NCBI RefSeq assembly: GCF_022602565.1
Contig: NZ_JALBCV010000017.1
Span: forward strand, 1 to 64,000
DNA from: Rosenbergiella metrosideri
Lineage (GTDB): Bacteria; Pseudomonadota; Gammaproteobacteria; Enterobacterales; Enterobacteriaceae
Direction of reading: 5' to 3'
DNA length: 64,000 bases
This document shows positions 9,561 through 35,818 of the stretch, piece by piece; position 1 is the stretch's first letter; each line of letters starts with the position of its first letter. Under the pieces are notes generated by a model that had not been told where the DNA came from, searched no databases, and was given only the letters and a program-made list of their open reading frames with translations. The translations under genes and the position numbers were made by a program.

Positions 9561-10271
9561 GTGCGTAAAGCGACTCTTATTGTCATAATTATCATCATTT
9601 TAAGTGCTATTGGCTATCGTTTACACTCTCGTTCAACGGTTTCTCACCAGCTTGCGCAGCAACAGGCTTTAGCCCAATTCGCCACATTACCAGGCTATCG
9701 CTTACTTAAACAGCAAGAGCCGCAGCTATGGCAAGAAGTAAGAGAATCTTTTCTCCATTCATTAGCAGCAGGGCATAGTCAGCTACAAGCGATTGGCGAG
9801 GTACGTGGCCAGCTAACTGAATTAGTAAATCTCAGAATTGTTAAAGCAGATGACCTTGCGGTAACGGATTACATTACAGTCGCAGTGCAAGAGATGCAGG
9901 CATTAAATGCGGTCTTGGCAGAAAGTTGTTACCGTTTTCTTTATCCGCAGGTCTCAGGTGGCGTAAATATTGGTACTCTCTTGAGCCCCAAAATGAATCA
10001 AGCTGATCAACAAGCTTTAGAGCAACTTTTCCTTCATAGCCAAGGCAGTGATCGAGCACGCGATATCAAGGCCGCGCATAATGCACTGAACGAGGTAGTG
10101 GAAAGGCTTTATCCACACTGGGGTAACCAATTACAGCAACTTAATCAACCGGAAGATTTAGCGACAGATCACCAGAAGCTTTGTGTGATGTCGATAGACC
10201 TGTACCGCACGATTTTAAAACTTCCGCAGCCCGAGGCCGCGAACCTCATTCGACAGATGGTTGTCGGCTGA
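9561..10271 (+). CDS. Hypothetical protein with N-terminal membrane anchor
   Basis: A 236-residue protein I do not recognise. A GTG start gives one hydrophobic segment (residues 5-19, rich in Ile) followed by RLHSR, so it is either an anchored protein facing the periplasm or has an uncleaved signal. The rest is predicted mostly helical, Gln- and Leu-rich and soluble, with Cys residues at SCYRF and KLCVM. Genes on both sides are same-strand, but the gaps are over 100 bp, so it may be transcribed alone. Confidence 0.6.
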   Translation: MRKATLIVIIIIILSAIGYRLHSRSTVSHQLAQQQALAQFATLPGYRLLKQQEPQLWQEVRESFLHSLAAGHSQLQAIGEVRGQLTELVNLRIVKADDLAVTDYITVAVQEMQALNAVLAESCYRFLYPQVSGGVNIGTLLSPKMNQADQQALEQLFLHSQGSDRARDIKAAHNALNEVVERLYPHWGNQLQQLNQPEDLATDHQKLCVMSIDLYRTILKLPQPEAANLIRQMVVG

Positions 10272-10388
10272 TAATCATTAAGAATCTACTGAAAATGAAC
10301 TTCAGGGCCCTATAACAGGGTATAGGGTGCCATCATCTCGGTTATAGTAGCGAGATCGAAGGTCTGAACTCATTATGGAAGGCTTGGC

Positions 10389-17006: not shown

Positions 17007-17192
17007 TTAATGCTGATCAACCCGGTTAAGTACATTACTGATAGTGTAGAAATCAGAATGGCTTAAACATAAGCTGTCCCGTTGTTGAGAGAGGTAAAGT
17101 AAAAGGTCATCTTTGGTGAGAGTGTTATTGATACTAAGTAACGCTATGGTCGCTTGACCGACAAGTGCATTAAGCGTGCTTTTAGTGCTCAT
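17007..17192 (-). CDS. Small AriR/YmgB-like protein
   Basis: A 61-residue soluble, helical protein. The pattern LVGQATIALLSINNTLTKDD followed by ISNVLNRV resembles the core of E. coli YmgB (AriR), a small dimeric protein that links acid resistance and biofilm formation and is controlled by the BLUF protein BluF. The match is by eye and covers only about 50 residues. AAGGG 8 nt upstream supports the start. A BluF-like gene lies in the same window, which makes the comparison worth testing. Confidence 0.5.
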   Translation of the reverse strand: MSTKSTLNALVGQATIALLSINNTLTKDDLLLYLSQQRDSLCLSHSDFYTISNVLNRVDQH

Positions 17193-18243: not shown

Positions 18244-18318
18244 GTCTCCTTAGTTAAATGGATATAACGAGCCCCTCCTAAGGGCTAGTTGCAGGTTCGA
18301 TTCCTGCAGGGGACACCA
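18244..18318 (+). tRNA. argW: tRNA-Arg (anticodon CCU), phage attachment site
   Basis: A 75-nt tRNA with encoded CCA. The anticodon stem-loop GCCCCTCCTAAGGGC gives CCU. The acceptor stem GTCTCCT/AGGGGAC has a G:U at position 4, whereas E. coli argW has it at position 5. In E. coli argW is the attachment site of a prophage with a P4-type integrase (intS), in the same chromosomal neighbourhood as mlaA. Here too an integrase relic follows directly, so the 3' half of this tRNA is the likely attB core. Confidence 0.96.
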
Positions 18319-18470
18319 TCTATAAGTAAACCGACGTAAACCCAAGTCAACAAAATACCCACCTAAGCCTTACCTCACAACGAACTATAGTAAACCGCAG
18401 TCAATTGACGACTACGCTATTTTGCGGGCATATTGTGGGCGCCATTTTATACCCTCAGGATTATGACCAC

Positions 18471-19639
18471 ATGCTCACCATCAAACAGATTGATTCTGCT
18501 AAGCCGAAAGAGAGAGCCTATAGGGTCGCTGACTCTGGTGGCCTATTTTTTTTCGTACCCCCAACAAGAAAAAGGTTTGGCGGTTGCGGTACAGATTCGA
18601 TGGTAGAGAAAAAACGCTGGCTCTAGGTTCATATCCTCAGGTGTCATTGGCCGAGGCTCGGGCAAAACAATCTGAGGCTAAGCTAAAAATATCGAATGGT
18701 ATTGACTCGTCTGAAGAAAAGAAGATGAGTAAGCGATCGGAAAGTAACTCCCTGCATTGCTAATCTATTTATCATGAGTGGTATGAGCATAAGCGAAAGG
18801 TGTGGTCAGAGGGGCACGCGCAGGAACTTGGCCGGATGTTCTCCGATGATATTCTCCCTCTGATTGGCGACCGGAATATCGATGAGATAGAACCCATGCA
18901 AATTCTCTCAGTGATTCGTCACTTTGAAAATCGCGGGGCTATGGAGCGGGCTAATAAAGCTCGTCGCCGATGAGGTGAAGTTTTCCGGTACGCCATTATG
19001 ACGGGGCGAGCCAAATATAATCCCGCCCCTGACCTTGCTGATGCAATGAAAGGTTACCGTAAAAAGAACTATCCATTTTTACCTGCCGACCAGATACCTG
19101 CATTCAATAAAGCTCTTGAAGGATTTACTGGCAGCGTTATATCTCGCATAGCTACGCAAATTCTCCAGTACACAGCTATGCGCACAAAAGAGATGAGGTC
19201 TATGCAATGGGAAAACGTCGATATTGAAAACAGGCTAATCAGGATAGATGAATGAGTGATGAAAGGTAGGCGTGAGTACTTGGTCCCAATGTCTGACCAG
19301 GTACTTTCGTTAATCGAAATCATCCGACCGATGACTGAGCCGGTGTCAAATTTTGTTTTCGCAGGAAGGGTAGATAAGAAGAAGCCTATCAGTGAAAACT
19401 CGGTATTACAGGTAATCAGGCAGATAGGCTATGAGGGGATAGCATCGGGGCATGGATTCCGTCACCAATTCATTACCGTTCTTAATGAACACGGCTGGCC
19501 ACACGATGCTATTGAAAGGCAGCTTGCGCACTCTGATAGTAACTCCATCCGTGGAATATATAACCATGCGCAGTATTTGGAAAAGCGTAGAGAGATGATG
19601 CAATGGTGGGCTAACTGGATTGACGGCACACAAGAATGA
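18471..19639 (+). pseudogene. Decayed P4-type tyrosine integrase
   Basis: The full path can be followed across frames. The N-terminus MLTIKQIDSAKPKERAYRVA and the following GGLFFFVPPT arm are in one frame. A single-base shift near 18568 leads to KVWRLRYRFDGREKTLALG and SLAEARAK. In that second frame there are stops at 18761 (TAA), 18971 (TGA) and 19253 (TGA), the last at a position where related proteins have Trp. The catalytic residues remain readable: Arg in TAMRTKEMR, His/Arg in HGFRHQF and Tyr in IYNHAQYL. It starts 152 bp after tRNA-Arg, the classic arrangement for P4-like and KpLE1-like integrases. It cannot make a functional enzyme. Confidence 0.93.
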
Positions 19640-25517: not shown

Positions 25518-25521
25518 ATGA
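25510..25521 (+). promoter_or_regulatory. CsrA-type site overlapping the pgaA start codon
   Basis: GGGCAAGGATGA contains CAAGGATG, which matches the CARGGAUG core of the CsrA consensus, and it covers the Shine-Dalgarno and start codon. CsrA repression of pgaA translation is established in E. coli; conservation here is inferred from this match. Confidence 0.5.
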
Positions 25522-27956
25522 GAAACCTCACTGTATTGACGGCCGGCATATTGCCTCGGCGTTGGCCAGCACTAATATGCTCGCTTCCCCTCCTTTTACT
25601 CGCGGATGCCAAGGCAACGTCTTATGACGAGCTGATCTTGCGAGCGCGGGACGGAGACACTGCCGAGTTGATGGCCTATTTTGTGGATGAATCGCAGCGC
25701 CATCCACTGAGCAGTAGTCAGATTGCGGATTGGTTACAGGTCGCGAGCTGGCAACAAGATAATGATACGGTGCTTTTGGTATGGCAGCGCTATGGTACAG
25801 AGTCGGCACTTCCGGCCAGAGCCTTTGCTGCAGTGGCGTCGGCAGAGCGTAATTTGCACCATTGGCCTAAGGCCATTGCATATTGGCAGCAAGCGCTTAA
25901 GCGTGCCCCTAATGAGATTGATTACCTCTCTGCGCTCTCCATGACGGAAGCCGATGCTGGGCAATTTACCGCAGCCAGTGAAACGGCAGAGCAGATTAAT
26001 CATTTGGGTAAAACGACTGACTACCGATTAACACTTGCTTACCTGCGTTTACGTGAACGAAAAAACGCAGAGGCTTTACTGTTACTGACTCAGGCAGAGC
26101 AACGTGATCCTGATGATCAACGTATACAGCGGCAACTTAGCGAACTTTATGCAATGAATCGTCTTTCCCGCCCCGCGCTACAGGCCGCGCAAACTTTATT
26201 ACTGCCTACGCAAAGATTAAGAGAAATACAACTTGATAGCGCTGCGGAGCTAGTACGCAATGCACTGATCCAGACTGACGATTTGCGAACCCGTTTTGAT
26301 ACTGCAGACCGAGCATTGGCCCTCTATCGCCAACTCAGCACAGCGTGGCAAGGGGTGGCCGATGCCCAACGCTCGTTGCAGCGTTTACGTTATGATCGCT
26401 TAGGGGCGTTGGTCGCACGCGAAGACTATAGTCAAGTTATTGAGGAATATCATCGATTGCTGGAGGCTAGGGCATCGTTACCTGACTATGTAAAACCCTG
26501 GATCGCGACGGCATTATTGGCATGTAAGCAACCACGTCAAGCATTAAGCGTATTATCGTCGATTCCGGTTCCTATTTCGCGGCAAGATGATGATCGTTTT
26601 TCAACCGAGTTTTACGCACTTTTGGAAAGCGGTCAGTATCACCTGGCCGGAGAAGCGTTAACCGCGCGCGCGGCGCATACCCCGTGGAAAACTCAGGTAT
26701 GGGGATTACCACTGCAACAACCCAATGATAGTTGGCTTAGCTTACAGTCTTTGAAGACTGATTACCTCGTCGATACTCAAGATCTTATCGGGGCACAGCA
26801 GTTAAGTCAGCGATTAGCGACCAGTGCCCCAGGTAATCAGGGGCTTGCTATTCAATATGCTAGGGTACTTTCTGCACGGGGAGCTGATCGCCATGCTGAG
26901 AGAATACTTAAGCGTGCTGAAAGTCTTATGCCTGATAATATTTCATTGGAAACAGAGCAAGCTTATGTTGCGGGTAACCTGCAAGAGTGGCAGCAAATGG
27001 ACCTGTTAACGGATGATCTTGTTGCCCGTTCGGCGAGTTCACCGGTTATCCAAGAATTAGAGGCGTTTCGACGAATTCAACATAGTTGGGAGCTGCAAGT
27101 AGGGGTAAATCACGGCCTCCACTCTAATAGCCCGGTAACGGGAAGTCGAGACATCGCCACGTCAAGTCGACTCTATACTCCGCCAATCGCGACTAACTTT
27201 CGACTTTTTAGTGGCTATCAATTCGAACAGAGCCATTTTGAAGAGGGTAAAAAATATGCCTCGACCCCTTCAATTGGTATCGAATGGCGCGAACGAGACT
27301 ATCAGGTGGAAATGGAGGTCAATCATCAACAGGTTTCAGGAAGAACACATACTGGTTTTCAGCTAGCAGGCTGGCACGACGTTGATGACCACTGGCGTAT
27401 CACCGGCCACGCAGCACGTTTCTCAACTCAAGCGCCCTTACGTGCACGCGCCAACCACGCCGCCGATGATGCGGGCCTTGGGCTTGAATGGCGGCAAAAT
27501 GAACGACGCGAGTACCTTTTCTCACTTAGCCCCACTCACTTTTCTGATGGAAACCACCGTATTGAATATCAGCTGTCAGGTAAAGAACGGCTATGGACTG
27601 CACCGAGAGTCGTGTTCGATTTTACCCCGGAACTGAGTGGCAGCCAAAATAGTCGGCAAAACGTCGCCTATTACAGTCCTAAAAACGATCTCTCTGTAAT
27701 CCCTGCTTTGACGCTAACCCATCAGATTAGTCAGCACTATGGGCGAGTGTGGCGCCAGCAACTAAGCTTTGGTAGTGGTATTTATCAACAGCATGGGCAG
27801 GCAACAGGTTCAACGACACAAATCAGTTACGGTCATGAAATAGAATGGAATAGACGTTTGACTACAGGGCTGACTTTACACTGGGGCCGTCAGCCTTGGG
27901 ATGGTCAGTATGAGAATACGCTCTCTGCACAGCTTGATATGACGCTGAGGTTTTAA
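25518..27956 (+). CDS. pgaA: Poly-GlcNAc outer-membrane porin PgaA
   Basis: An 812-residue outer-membrane exporter of poly-beta-1,6-N-acetylglucosamine (E. coli PgaA has 807). A signal peptide (residues about 10-35, ending in an ADAKA-type site) is followed by periplasmic TPR repeats to about residue 500 and a C-terminal beta-barrel with alternating aromatic strands ending DMTLRF, a typical barrel C-terminus. The ATG at 25518 (MRNLTVLTAG) gives a proper signal peptide; the longer frame to 25389 does not. It is the first gene of pgaABCD, and pgaB starts 2 nt after its stop. Confidence 0.93.
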   Translation: MRNLTVLTAGILPRRWPALICSLPLLLLADAKATSYDELILRARDGDTAELMAYFVDESQRHPLSSSQIADWLQVASWQQDNDTVLLVWQRYGTESALPARAFAAVASAERNLHHWPKAIAYWQQALKRAPNEIDYLSALSMTEADAGQFTAASETAEQINHLGKTTDYRLTLAYLRLRERKNAEALLLLTQAEQRDPDDQRIQRQLSELYAMNRLSRPALQAAQTLLLPTQRLREIQLDSAAELVRNALIQTDDLRTRFDTADRALALYRQLSTAWQGVADAQRSLQRLRYDRLGALVAREDYSQVIEEYHRLLEARASLPDYVKPWIATALLACKQPRQALSVLSSIPVPISRQDDDRFSTEFYALLESGQYHLAGEALTARAAHTPWKTQVWGLPLQQPNDSWLSLQSLKTDYLVDTQDLIGAQQLSQRLATSAPGNQGLAIQYARVLSARGADRHAERILKRAESLMPDNISLETEQAYVAGNLQEWQQMDLLTDDLVARSASSPVIQELEAFRRIQHSWELQVGVNHGLHSNSPVTGSRDIATSSRLYTPPIATNFRLFSGYQFEQSHFEEGKKYASTPSIGIEWRERDYQVEMEVNHQQVSGRTHTGFQLAGWHDVDDHWRITGHAARFSTQAPLRARANHAADDAGLGLEWRQNERREYLFSLSPTHFSDGNHRIEYQLSGKERLWTAPRVVFDFTPELSGSQNSRQNVAYYSPKNDLSVIPALTLTHQISQHYGRVWRQQLSFGSGIYQQHGQATGSTTQISYGHEIEWNRRLTTGLTLHWGRQPWDGQYENTLSAQLDMTLRF

Positions 27957-27958
27957 GG

Positions 27959-29965
27959 ATGAAAAAGTTAACTGATTGGGCTTTATCGCTGGTTTTTAGC
28001 CTACTGGTCACCTCACATGTTGCTCTGGCTGCTTCGGTCCCCTTCGCACCGCCATCCGAACGCGGGCATCCTTTATCTCAACAGTCATGGCCGACCAACA
28101 GTTTTCTCACTATTGCGTACCACGATGTCGAAGATGGTGGGGCGGACCAACGTTATCTGGCAGTCAGAACGAGTGCGCTGATAGAGCAGATGAATTGGCT
28201 TCGTGATAATGGCTATCAGCCAGTGAGTGTTCAACAAATTATTGAGGCACATCAGCATAAGCGTACGCTCCCCCCTAAAGCTATTTTGCTCAGTTTTGAC
28301 GATGGCTATAGTAGTTTCTACACGCGAGTTTGGCCGGTGCTTAAAGCCTGGAATTGGCCTGCACTTTGGGCGCCGGTCGGAAGTTGGGTCGATGCACCTG
28401 ATCATCAACCGATCGATTTTGGGGGTCTCTCTACCGCAAGGGAGAAATTTGCAACGTGGCAGATGGTGAAAGAAGTCAGTGATTCAGGCTTGGTCGAGAT
28501 TGGTTCTCATACTTGGAACGCTCACTTTGGCATTCCAGCCAATCCACAAGGCAGCCTAGAGCCGGCCATGACGAGTCGCTATTACGATTCTAAAGCGAAA
28601 CACTACGAGACGACCACGCAGTTTCAGCAGCGTATCAGTGCCGATATTAAAAAAATTACCGATAAATTAACACAGGTTACCGGTAAGTCACCGCGGGTGC
28701 TGGTTTGGCCCTATGGCGCAGATAACGGTGCTAGCTTAGCTTTGGCGCAGCAACAGGGTTATGAGATGGCCTTCACGTTAAACGATGGACTGGGTAATGC
28801 CAGTAATGTGATGAGTCTGCCTCGGGTACTGATTTCAGGAAATCCTTCCTTACAAAGCTTTGTGACAGAGATTGCGCAGACTGGCGACAGAGCACCGGTC
28901 AGGATGATCCATGTGGATCTGGATTACGTGTATGATCCTAACCCGCTACAACAACAGAAGAATATCGATCAACTGATTCAACGAGTCGCTGATCTACGGG
29001 TGACGCACGTATTTTTACAGGCTTTTGCCGATCCGAAAGGCGATGGTCTCGTCAAATCGCTCTATTTTCCGAATCGCCATCTTCCAGTCCGAGCGGATCT
29101 GTTTAATTTTGTCTCGTGGCAGTTACAGAATAGGGCGAATGTCAAAGTCTTCGCTTGGATGCCGGTGCTCGCCTTTGATTTGGATAAAAATCTTCCTCGA
29201 GTAGAAGGGGAGAAAGGGCACTCTACAGAACAGGGCGTGTATCAACGTCTCTCACCTTGGAGCCCTGCAGCGAGAAAGCAGATAACAGAGATTTATCAAG
29301 ATCTGGCAATTAATGCCACTTTCAGCGGGATTTTATTCCACGATGATGCCGTGCTCTCGGACTATGAAGACAGCAGTCCGCAAGCGATAAAAGCTTACCA
29401 AGAGGCAGGGTTCTCTTTATCAATGAGTGACATCCGTCAGTCGCCGGAAGCGTTATCTCGCTGGAGTGCTTATAAAAGCCAAGTGCTGATCGATTTTACC
29501 CAGCAACTGATGCATGCCGTCAGAAAAATACGGGGACCACAGATCGAATCGGCGAGGAACCTCTATGCCCAGCCGGTCCTTAACCCAGAGAGTGAGCAGT
29601 GGACGGCACAGAATCTCGCACTATTTATCAAGAACTATCGCTGGACGGTGCCGATGGCGATGCCTGAAATGGAAAATATTCCTGCCGCTGAACAAGCTCA
29701 ATGGCTTAAGCAAGTGGTGGCACGTATCAAGCAAATACCAGGGGGGCTCGATAAGACCATTATTGAATTACAGAGTGTCGATTGGCGGCATCCCGATGCG
29801 GCGCAATCGATAAATGATCGGCAGCTTGTTCAATGGATTGAAGCCTTGCAGTTACATGGTGTGCGCAATTATGGCTACTACCCAGATAATTTTTTAATGA
29901 ATAAACCGGCACTCTCGACTATTCGTCCTTATATCTCATCGGCTTGGTATCCTGCTCATGACTGA
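27959..29965 (+). CDS. pgaB: Poly-GlcNAc N-deacetylase PgaB
   Basis: A 668-residue two-domain enzyme that partially de-N-acetylates the polymer in the periplasm before export. The N-terminal NodB-like deacetylase has the metal motif [10 protein letters not shown] and the histidine motif [10 protein letters not shown]. The C-terminal part is a GH13-like hydrolase domain ([17 protein letters not shown]). E. coli PgaB is a lipoprotein, whereas this one has a plain signal peptide ending in ALA-AS and no lipobox Cys, so it is probably soluble. It overlaps pgaC by 8 nt. Confidence 0.94.
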
Positions 29966-31292
29966 TCGCATTCTTACATTCACTATTCTTTGCTTAGTGT
30001 TGAGCTTTCCATTGGGATTCGCGGCAACCTTCACTGGCGAAATTATGCTCAACTTCGTCTTTCTGTGGCCACTGTTTATGGCGGCATTATGGATCACAGG
30101 TGGTATTTACTTTTGGTTTCACCGTGAACGGTACTGGTCTCAAATACCGGAAATTGGGAATGAGGAAGGCCTCACTTCACCGCTTATCTCATTGCTGATC
30201 CCTTGTTATAACGAAGGGCCGAATGTTCGAGAAACCGTGGAGGCAGCGTTGCAACAGCGTTACTCTAATCTAGAGGTTATCGCGATAAATGACGGCTCTT
30301 CCGATAATACTGGAGATATTTTGACTCAGTTGGCAAGAGAGTATCCTAAGTTACGGGTAATTCATCTGGCTGAAAACCAAGGTAAAGCTGTTGCCTTACG
30401 CACTGGTGCTGCCGCGGCGAGAAGTGATTTTTTAGTCTGTATTGATGGCGATGCACTGCCTGACCCCAATATGGCAGCATTTTTGGTTGCGCCGCTGATC
30501 ACCTACCCTCGAGTCGGTGCGGTAACGGGTAATCCGCGGATTCGAACCCGCTCAACATTAGTGGGGAGGATTCAGGTCGGTGAGTTCTCATCAATTATTG
30601 GTTTGATCAAACGAACGCAGCGAATTTATGGACATGTCTTTACGGTCTCTGGTGTGATTACCGCCTTTCGCCGAACCGCGTTAGAAGAGGTCGGATACTG
30701 GAGCCCGGAAATGATTACTGAGGACATCGATATTAGCTGGAAGCTCCAATTACAGCACTGGTCGATCTTCTTTGAGCCACGGGCTATTTGTTGGATCTTA
30801 ATGCCAGAAACAATTAAAGGCCTGTGGAAACAGCGGTTACGCTGGGCACAAGGTGGGGCCGAAGTCTTTGTTAAAAATATGAAAAATATTTGGTCTTTTG
30901 AACACAAACGTATGTGGGTATTGCTAGGGGAATTTATGCTTTCCACCCTATGGGCATTCTCCTATGCCATGAGTGTTTTGCTTTTTGTGGTTGGGCTATT
31001 CATAACTTTGCCGAGTAATCTACAGGTTGAAACGCTATTTCCTCCACATTTCACCGGCATTACATTGGCAGTCGTGTGTTTATTCCAGTTTATCGTCAGT
31101 ATTATTATCGAACACCGTTATGAAAAGAAAATTTTCCAGTCACTATTCTGGGTGGTATGGTTCCCTGTTGTGTATTGGATGTTGAGTCTATTTACTACAT
31201 TAGTGGCCTTTCCTAAAGTAATGTTGAAAAAACAACAGCAACGTGCGCGGTGGAGCCATTCAGACCGAGGGATCGAGAGGACATCAAAATGA
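29958..31292 (+). CDS. pgaC: Poly-GlcNAc synthase PgaC
   Basis: A 444-residue inner-membrane family 2 glycosyltransferase that polymerises UDP-GlcNAc. Catalytic motifs are intact: [16 protein letters not shown], the [10 protein letters not shown] acid and QRLRWAQGG. Two N-terminal and about three C-terminal membrane helices flank the cytoplasmic domain. With PgaD it forms the complex activated by cyclic di-GMP. It overlaps both neighbours (8 nt with pgaB, 4 nt with pgaD), indicating translational coupling. Confidence 0.96.
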
Positions 31293-31708
31293 ATTCGCAA
31301 CCTATTATTATTACCGAGCCTCGTCTCTCAATCAGGATAATCGATGGTCTATTAACGCTTATCGCTTGGGGGGGATTTCTTTATCTCATTATCCATGAAT
31401 GTCAGCAATTATTTTCTGGGCAATATCAGCCAGAACTTTCTCCTGCGATCACACTACTCAATTATTTTTTATTCGCTCTTATTTATGTTTTGCTCTTTAT
31501 TTTATGGGCGAAATACAATCAGTTATTTTTTAGCAGAGAGAGAAGGAGAAGAAAGGGCATGCCTAATCAAGAGAAATTGGCAAAGAGCTTTGCTATAAGT
31601 ATTGTTGAATTAGATAAATTGGGAAGTCATAAAGTGATAAAAGTGTTTCACTCACCTTCTGGAGAGATCACGCAAAGTGAAATAATCATGCTCTCAGCAG
31701 AGCTGTGA
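31289..31708 (+). CDS. pgaD: Poly-GlcNAc synthase auxiliary subunit PgaD
   Basis: A 139-residue protein (137 in E. coli). Two membrane helices (residues about 20-45 and 58-82) are followed by a basic cytoplasmic tail starting [16 protein letters not shown]. PgaD stabilises PgaC and shares cyclic di-GMP binding with it. I take the ATG at 31289, which overlaps the pgaC stop as ATGA, rather than the upstream frame from 31250. Confidence 0.9.
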
Positions 31709-31768
31709 GAGAAACAATCTAGCTGAGCATCCTCATAATATAAACCGACATAATGAAGATGGGTCAAT

Positions 31769-31782
31769 CCATCAATTGATGG
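31769..31782. repeat. Perfect palindrome upstream of yfiR
   Basis: CCATCAATTGATGG is a perfect 14-bp palindrome about 65 bp before the yfiR start, in the short gap after pgaD. It is a candidate operator with no assigned regulator. Confidence 0.35.
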
Positions 31783-31847
31783 CACTGGTAGCGGTTAAAT
31801 GATAAAATCTTCTCATATGGTTCTAAAGGCTATTAAGCGAAAAAATA

Positions 31848-32357
31848 GTGAAATTTATCAGTAGGTTTTTGATTTTTATCTCTCTTTTTATATCCCACTT
31901 TGCTTTGTCGACCACTGGAGACAGAGAAATGCAAGTCTCTACGAATAAGATAGTTGAGGGAATATTAAGTTTCTCCCATTGGCCGAAGATTGAAGGACAA
32001 CCCTTGCTTTGTGTATCAAAGCAGGCAAACTTTTTTAATATAGAGAAGGCCGCGAGGGACCCCGTATTCAGAGTGGTTGCTATCAGTAATCCCACTGAAT
32101 TTCTATCAGCAGGATGCGATGCTATTTATTTTGGCCGAGAATCGGTTAAAGAACAGAACGATATTATCAACTCTCTCACAGGTAAAAATATTCTCACGAT
32201 TAGCGAAAATAATGCCGATTGTATTGCAGGCGCTGCTTTTTGTCTAATCAGACGACAACAGCTATTTAAATTTTCGGTCAACTTAGATTCACTGAGTCGC
32301 TCTGGTGTCAGAGTTAATTCAGATGTCCTATTATTATCCAAAGATGGGGATAATTAA
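31848..32357 (+). CDS. yfiR: Periplasmic repressor of the diguanylate cyclase, YfiR
   Basis: A 169-residue exported protein of the DUF4154 family. It starts at a GTG with a clear signal peptide, and no ATG is available upstream of it. Four cysteines are visible (LLCVSK, SAGCDA, ADCIAGAAFC). In Pseudomonas YfiR these form disulfides that make the protein redox-responsive, and the C-x6-C spacing of the last pair is kept. YfiR binds the periplasmic domain of YfiN and holds it inactive. It stands one base before the yfiN start. Confidence 0.88.
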   Translation: MKFISRFLIFISLFISHFALSTTGDREMQVSTNKIVEGILSFSHWPKIEGQPLLCVSKQANFFNIEKAARDPVFRVVAISNPTEFLSAGCDAIYFGRESVKEQNDIINSLTGKNILTISENNADCIAGAAFCLIRRQQLFKFSVNLDSLSRSGVRVNSDVLLLSKDGDN

Positions 32358-32358
32358 A

Positions 32359-33558
32359 ATGCTCCATCTGAAAAGCAAATCGAAAAGTTCAATTAGAAAG
32401 AAAATTAGAAAAGTGAGTTTACTCAATTCACTTCTAAATCTATTTGCCTGTTGGGTTTTATTATTTTCGACGGCAATATATTTTATAAAAGATTACGAAC
32501 AACGTAATATGGATTTGCTTTCGACCAGTTTAAGCAGCAGTTTAACCGCTGCAACTGTTTTTGAAGATAGCTATAATGCTAGTCGTAAAATCAATGCGTT
32601 AGGTCATCAGAAAATGTTTGACGCCGCGGTACTTTATGCAAAAGATGGCCATGTTATTGCTCGTTGGAAAGATAGCCAACAGGTGTCATATTTCTGGAAT
32701 TATCTTCATAGCTGGCTCTACCCAAATAAAAAGAAAATCGAGATTATTCACGATCAGCAGGTGGTAGGCTGGTTATTTATTGTCGGGAATGATACTTATT
32801 TATTTAATTTCGTTCTCTACTCAGTGTTAATTTTAACGATTGGAATGGTGTTGATATTTATATTCTCTTTCGTATTAAGTTCTATTATGTACAGAAAGAT
32901 CTTGGTTGCAATGAATCAAATCACGACAAAGATAAATCATGTCATCCATACCAAAGATTTCACAAAGCGTTTACCAGATAATTCATTAAAAGAGTTTCAG
33001 AATTTTTCCGACAATGTTAATAGTCTTATTAATGAAATAGAAAGACTTAATGGCGATCTAGTCCATGAAAATAAATCATTAGCCATAAAAGCTTACCGAG
33101 ATTCACTGACCGGACTTGATAATCGTGCGGCGTTCATCAGTCAGTTACAGTTTATGTTGAGTGAGAATGGCCCTTGCCCTTCTTTTTATATCTTATTTAT
33201 GGATGGGAATAAGTTTAAGAAAATTAATGACACATGGGGGCATGCCGCAGGCGATAAGGTACTACAGGAAGTGGGTAATAGATTGAAAACCTTGGTAAAA
33301 GGTGAGGATTGTGTTGCTCGATTGGGCGGTGATGAGTTCGCAATGATTCTTTCTAAAATGGAGAGCGATCATCAAGTGGAGACCTTTATTTCGGGGCTAC
33401 ATGAGAGATTCCAGTCGCCAATAGAGATTGCTGACGGTCAAACCGTTTCTTTCTCGTTGACTATCGGTTTCACCTTGGCAAATAAGGATGAAGAAGTCAG
33501 TGACATATTATTGAGAGCAGATTCTCATATGTATCGGAACAAAAAAACGGAAAGGTAA
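32359..33558 (+). CDS. dgcN: Diguanylate cyclase DgcN (YfiN)
   Basis: A 399-residue membrane enzyme that makes cyclic di-GMP from GTP. The order is a basic N-terminus, TM1 (residues about 20-40), a periplasmic domain of about 115 residues, TM2 (about 155-180), HAMP and a C-terminal GGDEF domain. The active-site motif RLGGDEFAMI is intact. The inhibitory I-site position reads KGED instead of RxxD, so product inhibition may be weaker. I place the start at 32359, just after the yfiR stop; the longer frame from 32305 overlaps yfiR. It is the middle gene of yfiRNB. Confidence 0.9.
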   Translation: MLHLKSKSKSSIRKKIRKVSLLNSLLNLFACWVLLFSTAIYFIKDYEQRNMDLLSTSLSSSLTAATVFEDSYNASRKINALGHQKMFDAAVLYAKDGHVIARWKDSQQVSYFWNYLHSWLYPNKKKIEIIHDQQVVGWLFIVGNDTYLFNFVLYSVLILTIGMVLIFIFSFVLSSIMYRKILVAMNQITTKINHVIHTKDFTKRLPDNSLKEFQNFSDNVNSLINEIERLNGDLVHENKSLAIKAYRDSLTGLDNRAAFISQLQFMLSENGPCPSFYILFMDGNKFKKINDTWGHAAGDKVLQEVGNRLKTLVKGEDCVARLGGDEFAMILSKMESDHQVETFISGLHERFQSPIEIADGQTVSFSLTIGFTLANKDEEVSDILLRADSHMYRNKKTER

Positions 33559-33563
33559 ATGAT

Positions 33564-34043
33564 ATGCGAGTTATATTGATAGGATTTTCTCTAGCTCTGA
33601 CATTGTTATTGTCAGGATGCCAAACTGATGGGCCTTTTAACGCGGTGCAAAAAAAAACGTTGCAACAGCAAGGATTTCAGTACTTAGGTTCTCGTTGGGT
33701 ATTGGGACTTAACGATAAAATTTTATTCGGAATTGAGCAATATAAACTCACCCCGGAGAGTCGTCAAAAAATTACTTCAATCGCCAATAATTTGAAAAGA
33801 GTCGGTATTTCCCATGTGGCGATTAATGGCCATACTGATAATTATGGCAAGGCCGACTATAACCAGCAGCTTTCTTATCTCCGTGCAAGAAGCGTCGCAC
33901 AGGTATGGATGAGCAGCACTGGCGACGACACGAATCATATCTTGGTGAATGGTTACGGAATGTCTAAACCGATAGCGGATAACAAGACGGCCCAGGGCAG
34001 AGCGATGAACCGTCGTGTTGCGATTGTGGTAGAGGCCCCCTGA
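33564..34043 (+). CDS. yfiB: OmpA-like lipoprotein YfiB
   Basis: A 159-residue lipoprotein (lipobox LSGC, Cys at residue 19) with a C-terminal OmpA-like peptidoglycan-binding domain. The motif INGHTDNYGKADYNQQLSYLRA includes the conserved Asp and Arg that grip diaminopimelate. In the known YfiBNR system YfiB sequesters YfiR at the outer membrane and so releases DgcN. It lies 5 nt after dgcN in the same operon. Confidence 0.9.
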   Translation: MRVILIGFSLALTLLLSGCQTDGPFNAVQKKTLQQQGFQYLGSRWVLGLNDKILFGIEQYKLTPESRQKITSIANNLKRVGISHVAINGHTDNYGKADYNQQLSYLRARSVAQVWMSSTGDDTNHILVNGYGMSKPIADNKTAQGRAMNRRVAIVVEAP

Positions 34044-34050
34044 TGGGGAA

Positions 34051-34071
34051 GAGGGGATAAAGTGTCCCCTC
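34051..34071 (+). terminator. Hairpin after yfiB
   Basis: A 7-bp stem (GAGGGGA / TCCCCTC) with a 7-nt loop lies 7 nt after the stop, without a U-tract. It is a probable end of the yfiRNB transcript. Confidence 0.45.
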
Positions 34072-34084
34072 GAATAACACTATC

Positions 34085-34425
34085 CTAATGTTCTTTACCT
34101 GGGACCCAACGCTGGGTGGATGAAACCGTCTTTACACAAGGGGTAGGGGAAACCCGTTCGATAAGCAGGCCAAATGTCGTCATACCAAATCAAATCTGAT
34201 TGCCTTCGCCTTCCTCACCGCCGAAGCAGCAAATATCGTCGGTATAAATCGAGATTGGGGCGAATCCGGTCTCAACGAAAGTATGGTTTTGATGGCTGAC
34301 AGCAGGATTTCCCCCAAACGAGATAACCCTATACAGCAGATCAGCATCAAAAGTGTGTTTAAAAAAGGCTCTGCTTTATCGGGATCTCCGACAGTTATCC
34401 CTATATGTTCAATACCTCCGACCAT
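34085..34425 (-). pseudogene. VOC/glyoxalase-family protein, frameshifted
   Basis: The start MVGGIEHIGITVGDPDKAE is the first metal-binding strand of a VOC-family protein. One base after the PF codons the frame is lost. In another frame the sequence continues FFKHTFDADLLYRVI, then HTFVETGFAPISIYTDD, and after an in-frame TGA ends TQRWVPGKEH at 34085. The middle of the domain appears shortened. Its function is lost, and the substrate of the ancestor is unknown. Confidence 0.7.
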
Positions 34426-34612
34426 AACAATGGCCTTTTTTAAAGACTTTCTAGCAAGGCTAGCATAAGGAGGTATGATCTGCGTAACAAGGCGGAACAT
34501 TGTTGGATACTGGTAAGGCGAGAAATTTTTTACAATAGAGGGAAGGTATAACAGGGGGCTGACGCGTTTATTATTCCCTCCATAGTGAAGGGAATAAGGG
34601 TTAATGCAATTA

Positions 34613-35818
34613 TTAGTGTCGAACTGGCCAGTTTATCGCGGGAAGTTTACGCGGCAGAACGCCAGCAAATAGTTCACCTTGGAATGCTTTAACGCCTGCT
34701 AGACGTAGCCACGACCACTCTTCAACTTGCGTGATACCTGAAGCGATAACTTGGATTTCAAGCGATGAGCATATTTTAATAATAGATTGATTGATCGCTT
34801 GTTTTGGTCCATTTTTATGGACATCACGTAGTATATCACTGTCAACCATCACTAATTCTGGCTGAATACGGGTCAGTAGCAACAGTCCAGCCATGCCAGC
34901 ACCAAAATTGTCGATAGCAAGACGGATTCCAGCGCGCTTTAACTTCATTATCTCGGCGTTAAAGGTCTCATCTTCGTTCACAACGCTATCTTCATCAATT
35001 GAGATAACGATCTGTTGCGGTACAAAATCATTAGCTTCGATGGCGGTTAGGAGAAAATTCACTGCTTCAGGGTTTTTGACCAAGGTCATTGGCAGCAGTT
35101 TCAGTACCAATGTGTAGTCATTTAGACCTAAGCTTTTAGCCATTTCTAAAGCGGTCTGCTTGGACACGAGATCAACTTCATAAATCTCATCGCGTTGCAG
35201 GCCTGCGAAAAATTTCAGTGGTGACTGGCCATCCGCGGCCCGCATCTTAGCTTCATAGCTTAAAATTTTGCGACAGCTAGGGTTGATGACCGGTTGGAAA
35301 CCGAAGGTGTAGGGCAATCCCTCGCTATGCTCGGCGACCACCTCAGATTGTTCGTTCAGCTCGAACTGCCACTGCTCGCTTTCACTTAATTCAAGATAAC
35401 TGGCTTTATTTTCACACTCTACGAAGGTCTTAATAAATTGTAATGTCCGGTCATCGTAGGTGAGTTTAAATTTCGATGTGGCGCGAGCGAGCACCGCATC
35501 AAGCACAGCGGATTTTTCATAGTTTCGCAAATCGAATAATTCCATTCCGGTATTTCCGAAATGGCGTTCAACTGAGTAGTCGCGGAGTAATTCCGTCAAA
35601 GAGAAGTGTCGCGAGTCTTCACAAATTACGCGATAAATCGTCTCAACTTCCTCTTCGGGTCCTTCAAGCAATTGTAAAAAATGCTCACCATCAAACAATA
35701 ATATCCCTGTTACTGCAGTTTCAGCATTGCGTTGGTTAGCCTTTTCAATAAACTTTTTCACTTCAGGTTCTGAAGTATTTTTACCGATATGACTTCTATA
35801 GATGATGGTCGTAAGCAT
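34613..35818 (-). CDS. bluF: Blue-light sensor with BLUF and degenerate EAL domains (BluF/YcgF-like)
   Basis: A 401-residue cytoplasmic protein. The N-terminal BLUF domain keeps the flavin-site residues Tyr7, Asn31 and Gln49. A linker of about 80 residues leads to an EAL-type domain whose catalytic motifs are altered: YEAKMR in place of EAL-R, DNFGAG for DDFGTG, and ASGIT for the AEGVE motif. It therefore should not hydrolyse cyclic di-GMP. This matches E. coli BluF, which acts as a light-dependent antirepressor of BluR. It is adjacent to yfiRNB and divergent from ccmA. AGGA upstream of the ATG is a fair ribosome binding site. Confidence 0.9.
   Translation of the reverse strand: MLTTIIYRSHIGKNTSEPEVKKFIEKANQRNAETAVTGILLFDGEHFLQLLEGPEEEVETIYRVICEDSRHFSLTELLRDYSVERHFGNTGMELFDLRNYEKSAVLDAVLARATSKFKLTYDDRTLQFIKTFVECENKASYLELSESEQWQFELNEQSEVVAEHSEGLPYTFGFQPVINPSCRKILSYEAKMRAADGQSPLKFFAGLQRDEIYEVDLVSKQTALEMAKSLGLNDYTLVLKLLPMTLVKNPEAVNFLLTAIEANDFVPQQIVISIDEDSVVNEDETFNAEIMKLKRAGIRLAIDNFGAGMAGLLLLTRIQPELVMVDSDILRDVHKNGPKQAINQSIIKICSSLEIQVIASGITQVEEWSWLRLAGVKAFQGELFAGVLPRKLPAINWPVRH

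Follow-up and report, generated by a model that had tools for sequence, protein, structure and literature searches.

The 64,000-nucleotide stretch of Rosenbergiella metrosideri DNA analysed here (contig NZ_JALBCV010000017.1, positions 1 to 64,000; hereafter the window) carries, between 25518 and 35818, the poly-GlcNAc operon pgaABCD, followed by yfiR, yfiN (dgcN) and yfiB and then by a convergent BLUF-EAL gene, bluF, with ccmA beyond it. We consider it rather probable, judging from the gene complement and its order, that the pga and yfi genes make up a local unit for the production and use of cyclic di-GMP (c-di-GMP), in which YfiRNB would drive the PgaCD synthase and bluF would be a separate neighbour. 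The arrangement is real and non-random. Its parts are known in themselves, and the new point is their repeated assembly, which we regard as a recurrent rearrangement of known parts and probably a selected one.

The pga-yfi locus and a proposed local circuit

All named genes are open and of the length usual for their families, according to the reading frames and family scans of the window, and PgaA, PgaB, PgaC, PgaD, YfiR, DgcN/YfiN and YfiB each passed at least one NCBIfam cut-off. The genes pgaA, pgaB, pgaC and pgaD stand in the order of a PgaABCD/HmsHFRS operon, each matching its family, with neighbours overlapping or separated by few bases. After a gap of about 140 bp they are followed by one run of almost contiguous genes with the composition of a YfiBNR/HmsCDE module, namely a four-cysteine YfiR, a CHASE8-GGDEF YfiN and an OmpA-like YfiB, and the last gene combines a BLUF and an EAL domain. 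The original prediction, made from the DNA letters, had named pgaABCD, yfiRNB and bluF as direct neighbours, and frames, order and family matches bear this out.

The c-di-GMP binding site of the Pga machinery is that of PgaC-PgaD. In the circuit we propose, YfiR would act from the periplasm to keep the diguanylate cyclase YfiN off, and redox or envelope stress, by way of the YfiR cysteines and YfiB, would release it; c-di-GMP made by YfiN would then act on the PgaC-PgaD synthase and switch on the synthesis of poly-GlcNAc, which PgaA and PgaB would process and export. With yfiRNB placed behind pgaD, activator and target would be inherited, and possibly transcribed, together. Several published observations (papers are cited here for particular passages) are relevant to these steps: repression of YfiN by YfiR, a periplasmic protein, is lifted under redox stress (PMC10127611), the Pga machinery is bound directly by c-di-GMP (PMC4287979), and biofilm of Y. 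pestis is lowered by hmsCDE deletion and raised by its overexpression (PMC4325325).

All 11 aligned orthologs retain the four cysteine columns of YfiR. The window YfiN has an intact GGDEF motif, and KGED replaces the RxxD of the I-site; absence of RxxD is no general trait of YfiN, the motif being present in 26 of the 49 YfiN rows overall. An even sample of 800 kb from genome G122, a quarter of one genome and not a census, contained one GGDEF-EAL gene when the yfiN and bluF of the locus were excluded, which suggests that Rosenbergiella has few competing GGDEF/EAL enzymes and would be a simple test host. The recurrent pga-yfi linkage bears on a general problem of c-di-GMP biology, how a single diguanylate cyclase out of many comes to act on a particular target, and the repeated move of the same stress-gated cyclase beside the same target may be considered a natural experiment for local signalling.

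Linkage of pga and yfi within the genus and beyond

The order pgaABCD-yfiRNB-bluF-ccm is identical in four of the five Rosenbergiella genomes, the window included, and the same number possess PgaC with 90-100% identity. In the fifth, G121, the sole PgaC match is a 33% partial glycosyltransferase match and YfiR was not found; the bluF-ccm block is kept, and about 4 kb from bluF there is a match to the last 24 YfiB residues, adjoining an open reading frame (ORF) with transposase-type rve domains that reaches the contig end. From these remains it appears that a secondary loss probably took pga and yfi jointly from G121, omission from the assembly being the alternative. Pairwise ratios of nonsynonymous to synonymous substitution (dN/dS) were low: the pga and yfi genes gave 0.02-0.22 and the whole bluF 0.03-0.06, for the pairs where they could be computed, which leaves out the most distant ones and includes several with dS above 1.

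A sample of 392 genomes of the family was searched for linkage, defined as PgaC and YfiR within 10 kb. YfiR occurred in 110 genomes (109 above cut-off), PgaC above cut-off in 64, and both in 42 genomes of 16 genera, one of the 42 genomes (G027) having a broken YfiR. The two were linked in six of these 42 genomes and two of the 16 genera: Rosenbergiella (3/3) and the insect-associated Xenorhabdus (3/3). We also compared 76 named loci in which PgaC was matched at no less than 48% identity, using a YfiR profile built from 12 sequences. Here yfiR-yfiN adjoins pgaD in 21, comprising 2/2 of Rosenbergiella, 18/18 of Xenorhabdus and the single one of Brenneria sp. hezel4-2-4, where it is inverted; it was beside pgaD in none of the remaining 55, a number of which stop near the operon. 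Another GGDEF or EAL gene lies within 10 kb of pgaC, on one side or the other, in 16 of these 55, a figure for which no chance baseline was computed in those genera. In a sample of the class, taken to look for linkage outside the family, PgaC was detected at E<=1e-100 in 23 of 369 genomes, one being the window's own; YfiR was sought in the other 22 and in G251 and G105, and no linkage was found, the sub-cut-off YfiR matches in two of the 22 being on a different contig in one case and 1.4 Mb off in the other. The survey of relatives thus went against random adjacency, which would have counted against the original prediction: the order is conserved in the genus and independent in Xenorhabdus.

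The 18 Xenorhabdus loci (L096-L099, L101-L111, L113, L114 and L136) all have a membrane EAL gene on the same strand about 0.3 kb after yfiB; in L097, where the yfiR frame is short and yfiB was not detected, it follows yfiN instead. Its catalytic positions are kept in 11 of 11 aligned sequences, and the EAL domain is Pfam-confirmed in one. The Xenorhabdus locus would combine the target machinery with a cyclase and a putative phosphodiesterase, making it a predicted locus for making, breaking and using c-di-GMP. An RxxD motif (RKTD) stands five residues before GGDEF in all 18 Xenorhabdus YfiN sequences and in none of four from Rosenbergiella, and product inhibition may not be alike in the two.

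Identical gene order in Rosenbergiella and Xenorhabdus (L063) might be explained by a pga-yfi block that moved between genera as a single transferred cassette, and an integrase beside tRNA-Arg upstream in the window, with a relative adjoining pga in Tatumella sp. JGM91, would fit it. The trees, however, speak otherwise. Rosenbergiella YfiN groups with two Tatumella-genus sequences (support 100/100), and a Rosenbergiella plus Xenorhabdus clade is rejected by the approximately unbiased (AU) test at p 1.7e-21; Rosenbergiella PgaC groups with Tatumella sp. JGM118 (support 100/100), and the corresponding clade with Xenorhabdus is rejected at p 4e-5. These trees comprised 41 of 49 YfiN rows, eight Xenorhabdus rows being omitted, and 35 of 80 PgaC rows, and are to be read with some caution, as long branches lead to Rosenbergiella and Tatumella YfiN and odd composition was flagged for two Rosenbergiella rows and one Tatumella-genus row. 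Since both trees reject a shared origin, the two adjacencies most likely arose separately, and the linkage at least twice; with no integrase match in the corresponding R. epipactidis interval either, we set the shared cassette aside as very improbable. Tatumella sp. JGM118 carries both systems, on different contigs. The pga operon of Tatumella sp. JGM91 (L151) is more distant, and is flanked by a second pgaB-like stretch on its upstream side and by an integrase match on its downstream side.

It may also be proposed that the adjacency was fixed once, by chance, in the Rosenbergiella ancestor and has no regulatory meaning. We hold this unlikely, although 14 of the 16 sampled two-system genera keep pga and yfi apart as assembled and a separate promoter-like site precedes yfiR: the separate linkage in Xenorhabdus, the third arrangement in Brenneria and the joint absence of pga and yfi from G121 all argue against it, as do the other GGDEF/EAL genes near pga, with the reservation made above about their baseline.

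The promoter-like site in question, ATGGCA-18-TAAAAT at 31779-31808, is present in three species in an alignment of three rows; such sites numbered 14 in the pattern scan against 12.6 expected from shuffling, that is, without excess, which makes it weak evidence. The same scan gave no terminator-like site on the + strand between pgaD and yfiR, and both read-through from pgaD into yfiR and separate control of yfiR are possible. An inverted repeat lies directly after pgaD (window 31715-31765); it reads ATCCTCAT...ATGAGGAT in R. collisarenosi, is kept with changes in the window and in R. epipactidis, and has no T-run.

Several points weigh against a local YfiRNB-PgaCD unit and should be taken together. 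Linkage is not required, as 36 of the 42 two-system genomes are without adjacency as assembled (20 with the genes on one contig but separated by 288 kb or more, 16 with them on different contigs). Genome G251, of the genus Xenorhabdus, has YfiR and no PgaC match at E<=1e-100, which implies that yfiRNB can serve other targets. The linkage events number two clear and one probable, and yfiR may be transcribed from its own promoter instead of in one operon with pga.

In the open-licence PMC literature we met pgaABCD and yfiRNB together in a Klebsiella review, with no statement on their adjacency in the passages considered, though earlier reports may exist, and we found nothing joining Xenorhabdus with yfiR, or BluF and BluR with pgaABCD.

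BluF and the YmgB-family genes

The original prediction went further and suggested that local control of poly-GlcNAc may be fed both by envelope stress, by way of YfiRNB, and by blue light, by way of BluF. The stress half is plausible and now better supported, the linkage being conserved and recurrent; the light half is not supported, and the model in full we consider quite unlikely. In its favour, the end of bluF is 0.6-1.0 kb from yfiB in the four pga-bearing genomes, the photosensor half is conserved in five of five Rosenbergiella and aligns throughout with BlrP1 and E. coli BluF, and an EAL gene follows yfiB in Xenorhabdus too. Against it stand the state of the EAL domain and the lack of a convincing BluR in five genomes, both described below, and the position of bluF, which is on the opposite strand beside ccmA, its constant neighbour, and is retained in G121 where pga and yfi are gone. 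In the six other sampled genera that possess both a BLUF gene and PgaC, the two lie on different contigs or are separated by at least 61 kb.

Enterobacter sp. R1(2018) offers a second instance of a BLUF gene close to pga: downstream of pgaD, at 2.1-5.5 kb, it has an ariR-ycgZ-bluF-bluR block (L072 6305-11843), with bluF itself 3.5 kb away; the block's start at 2.1 kb may be counted on the side of light control.

The roles of the eight catalytic and metal-binding EAL positions are those known for EAL proteins and BlrP1. Five of the eight are changed in all five Rosenbergiella species (N to K/R, E to S, second D to N, K to M/L and last E to S), while Q and the first E and D are retained, so that the intact set of a BlrP1-type phosphodiesterase is lost and no phosphodiesterase activity is expected; such a role for BluF was rejected on these residues. 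BlrP1 is the best solved match to Rosenbergiella BluF, which shares 48% identity with E. coli BluF, a protein in which two of the eight positions are changed. All eight are intact in three BLUF loci without BluR within about 1.5 kb.

An E. coli BluR query met a 25% partial match in G000 and nothing in the other four of the five Rosenbergiella genomes; the paralog MlrA probably would have matched this query, no search having been aimed at MlrA itself. The BluF-BluR antirepressor pathway was rejected on this ground. Degenerate BluF genes usually adjoin bluR and a ycgZ-ymgAB-like unit (PMC3509220), and the BluR-less degenerate BluF of Rosenbergiella is an exception to this adjacency. Two further exceptions may be present in the local DNA searched: G035 (L226 6575-9302), whose degenerate BluF has four of eight positions changed, converges on four Ymg-like genes and has no BluR within 18 kb, and G031, with one position changed and no BluR within 16 kb.

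An AriR-like gene at 17007 had been put forward as a possible further member of the system, and the evidence for it is weak. No Pfam match to ORF 17007-17192 was obtained at E<=1, nor does the ORF figure among the PF10798 matches of the genus; it has a weak match of 12.8 bits to a home-made YmgB-family profile, against at most 5.6 bits for 200 shuffles, and hhalign gave a probability of 63. At best, then, the ORF encodes a divergent YmgB-like protein. PF10798 matches occur in all five Rosenbergiella genomes, away from bluF, and clear YmgB-family genes were found in G000 as tandem YmgB/YcgZ-like small genes at C111, approximately 9591-10358 (L183), on a contig other than that of bluF. A place for ORF 17007 in a BluF-ymg circuit was rejected accordingly. 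A BluR-free link between BluF and Ymg proteins is possible.

We read bluF, on its predicted protein, as a conserved separate neighbour encoding a photosensor with a presumably non-catalytic EAL domain. One broader idea, to which we give slight credence, would be that pga loci repeatedly recruit a private c-di-GMP unit, with yfiRNB taken up at least twice and an EAL-fold gene after it, its catalytic positions kept in Xenorhabdus and the gene BLUF-bearing and degenerate in Rosenbergiella. BluR-less BluF would then form a third functional class of BLUF-EAL proteins, working through contact with a partner encoded close by, for instance YfiN or the Pga complex. If true, such contact would place biofilm under the control of light in a bacterium that lives in nectar, Rosenbergiella being a nectar- and bee-associated genus (PMC10142583).

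Features of the locus and known systems

The genome of the window comprises 3.34 Mb in 164 contigs, and the features discussed are collected in Table 1.

Table 1. Features of the window, with coordinates, strand and basis of assignment
Feature	Coordinates	Strand	Basis
pgaA, poly-GlcNAc export porin, 812 aa	25518..27956	+	PF21197, TIGR03939 above cut-off
pgaB, deacetylase/glycosidase, 668 aa	27959..29965	+	TIGR03938, NF011177 above cut-off
pgaC, poly-GlcNAc synthase, 444 aa	29958..31292	+	TIGR03937, 615 bits, above cut-off
pgaD, small synthase subunit, 139 aa	31289..31708	+	PF13994, TIGR03940 above cut-off
pgaD-yfiR intergenic region	31709..31847	+	alignment, pattern scan
yfiR, periplasmic YfiN repressor, GTG start assumed	31848..32357	+	NF053586 above cut-off; matches solved YfiR
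yfiN/dgcN, CHASE8-GGDEF diguanylate cyclase	32359..33558	+	NF007423, PF17152, PF00990
yfiB, OmpA-like outer-membrane lipoprotein	33564..34043	+	NF053585 above cut-off; LLSGC lipobox by eye
short ORF between yfiB and bluF, probably from a decayed gene	34180..34500	-	two-frame match in L053
bluF, BLUF photosensor with degenerate EAL domain, 401 aa	34613..35818	-	PF04940, PF00563; aligned to BlrP1 3gfx
61-aa ORF, possibly divergent YmgB/AriR-like	17007..17192	-	12.8 bits to home-made profile

The short ORF between yfiB and bluF has no Pfam or NCBIfam match; by eye we take it to be VOC/glyoxalase-like. A piece of it was found upstream of pgaA in R. collisarenosi. Farther upstream, a tRNA-Arg(CCT) is followed by an integrase gene split across two ORFs and by small ORFs (18244-19639), which looks like a decayed integrative element.

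Enzymes of c-di-GMP turnover encoded near pga are a known theme (PMC4287979). The positions of pga (1.086 Mb), bluF (1.214 Mb) and yfiRNB (2.742 Mb) in E. coli MG1655 agree with the predicted difference from that species; nonetheless a c-di-GMP enzyme gene does stand beside E. coli pga, the divergent dgcT (ycdT) next to pgaA, and in enterohaemorrhagic E. coli pdeT is found there as well (PMC4287979). DgcT, however, has a MASE4 sensor and is without YfiR or YfiB, and so it is not a yfiRNB system. The BLUF-EAL architecture is common to Rosenbergiella BluF, the E. coli BluF-BluR pathway and Klebsiella BlrP1. BlrP1 is an active phosphodiesterase (PMC3509220), unlike the Rosenbergiella protein with its five lost positions, and the E. 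coli protein differs by having lost two and by acting with BluR, for which Rosenbergiella has no convincing counterpart. A close likeness is also seen in Xenorhabdus, whose pgaABCD-yfiRN(B) genes have the order and strand seen in Rosenbergiella; that locus differs in its same-strand EAL gene downstream in place of a BLUF gene, in the RxxD of its YfiN and in its separate origin.

We take Yersinia HmsD and HmsE to be the equivalents of YfiN and YfiB, and presume that hmsCDE and hmsHFRS are not neighbours in that genus. The protein families of YfiR, YfiN and YfiB and of PgaABCD are those of HmsCDE and HmsHFRS, and hmsCDE promotes biofilm, whereas the cited passages treat hmsCDE and hmsHFRS as separate operons (PMC4325325). 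By analogy with HmsD and HmsHFRS in Yersinia, the Rosenbergiella arrangement supports a local circuit that would lead from YfiN to PgaCD.

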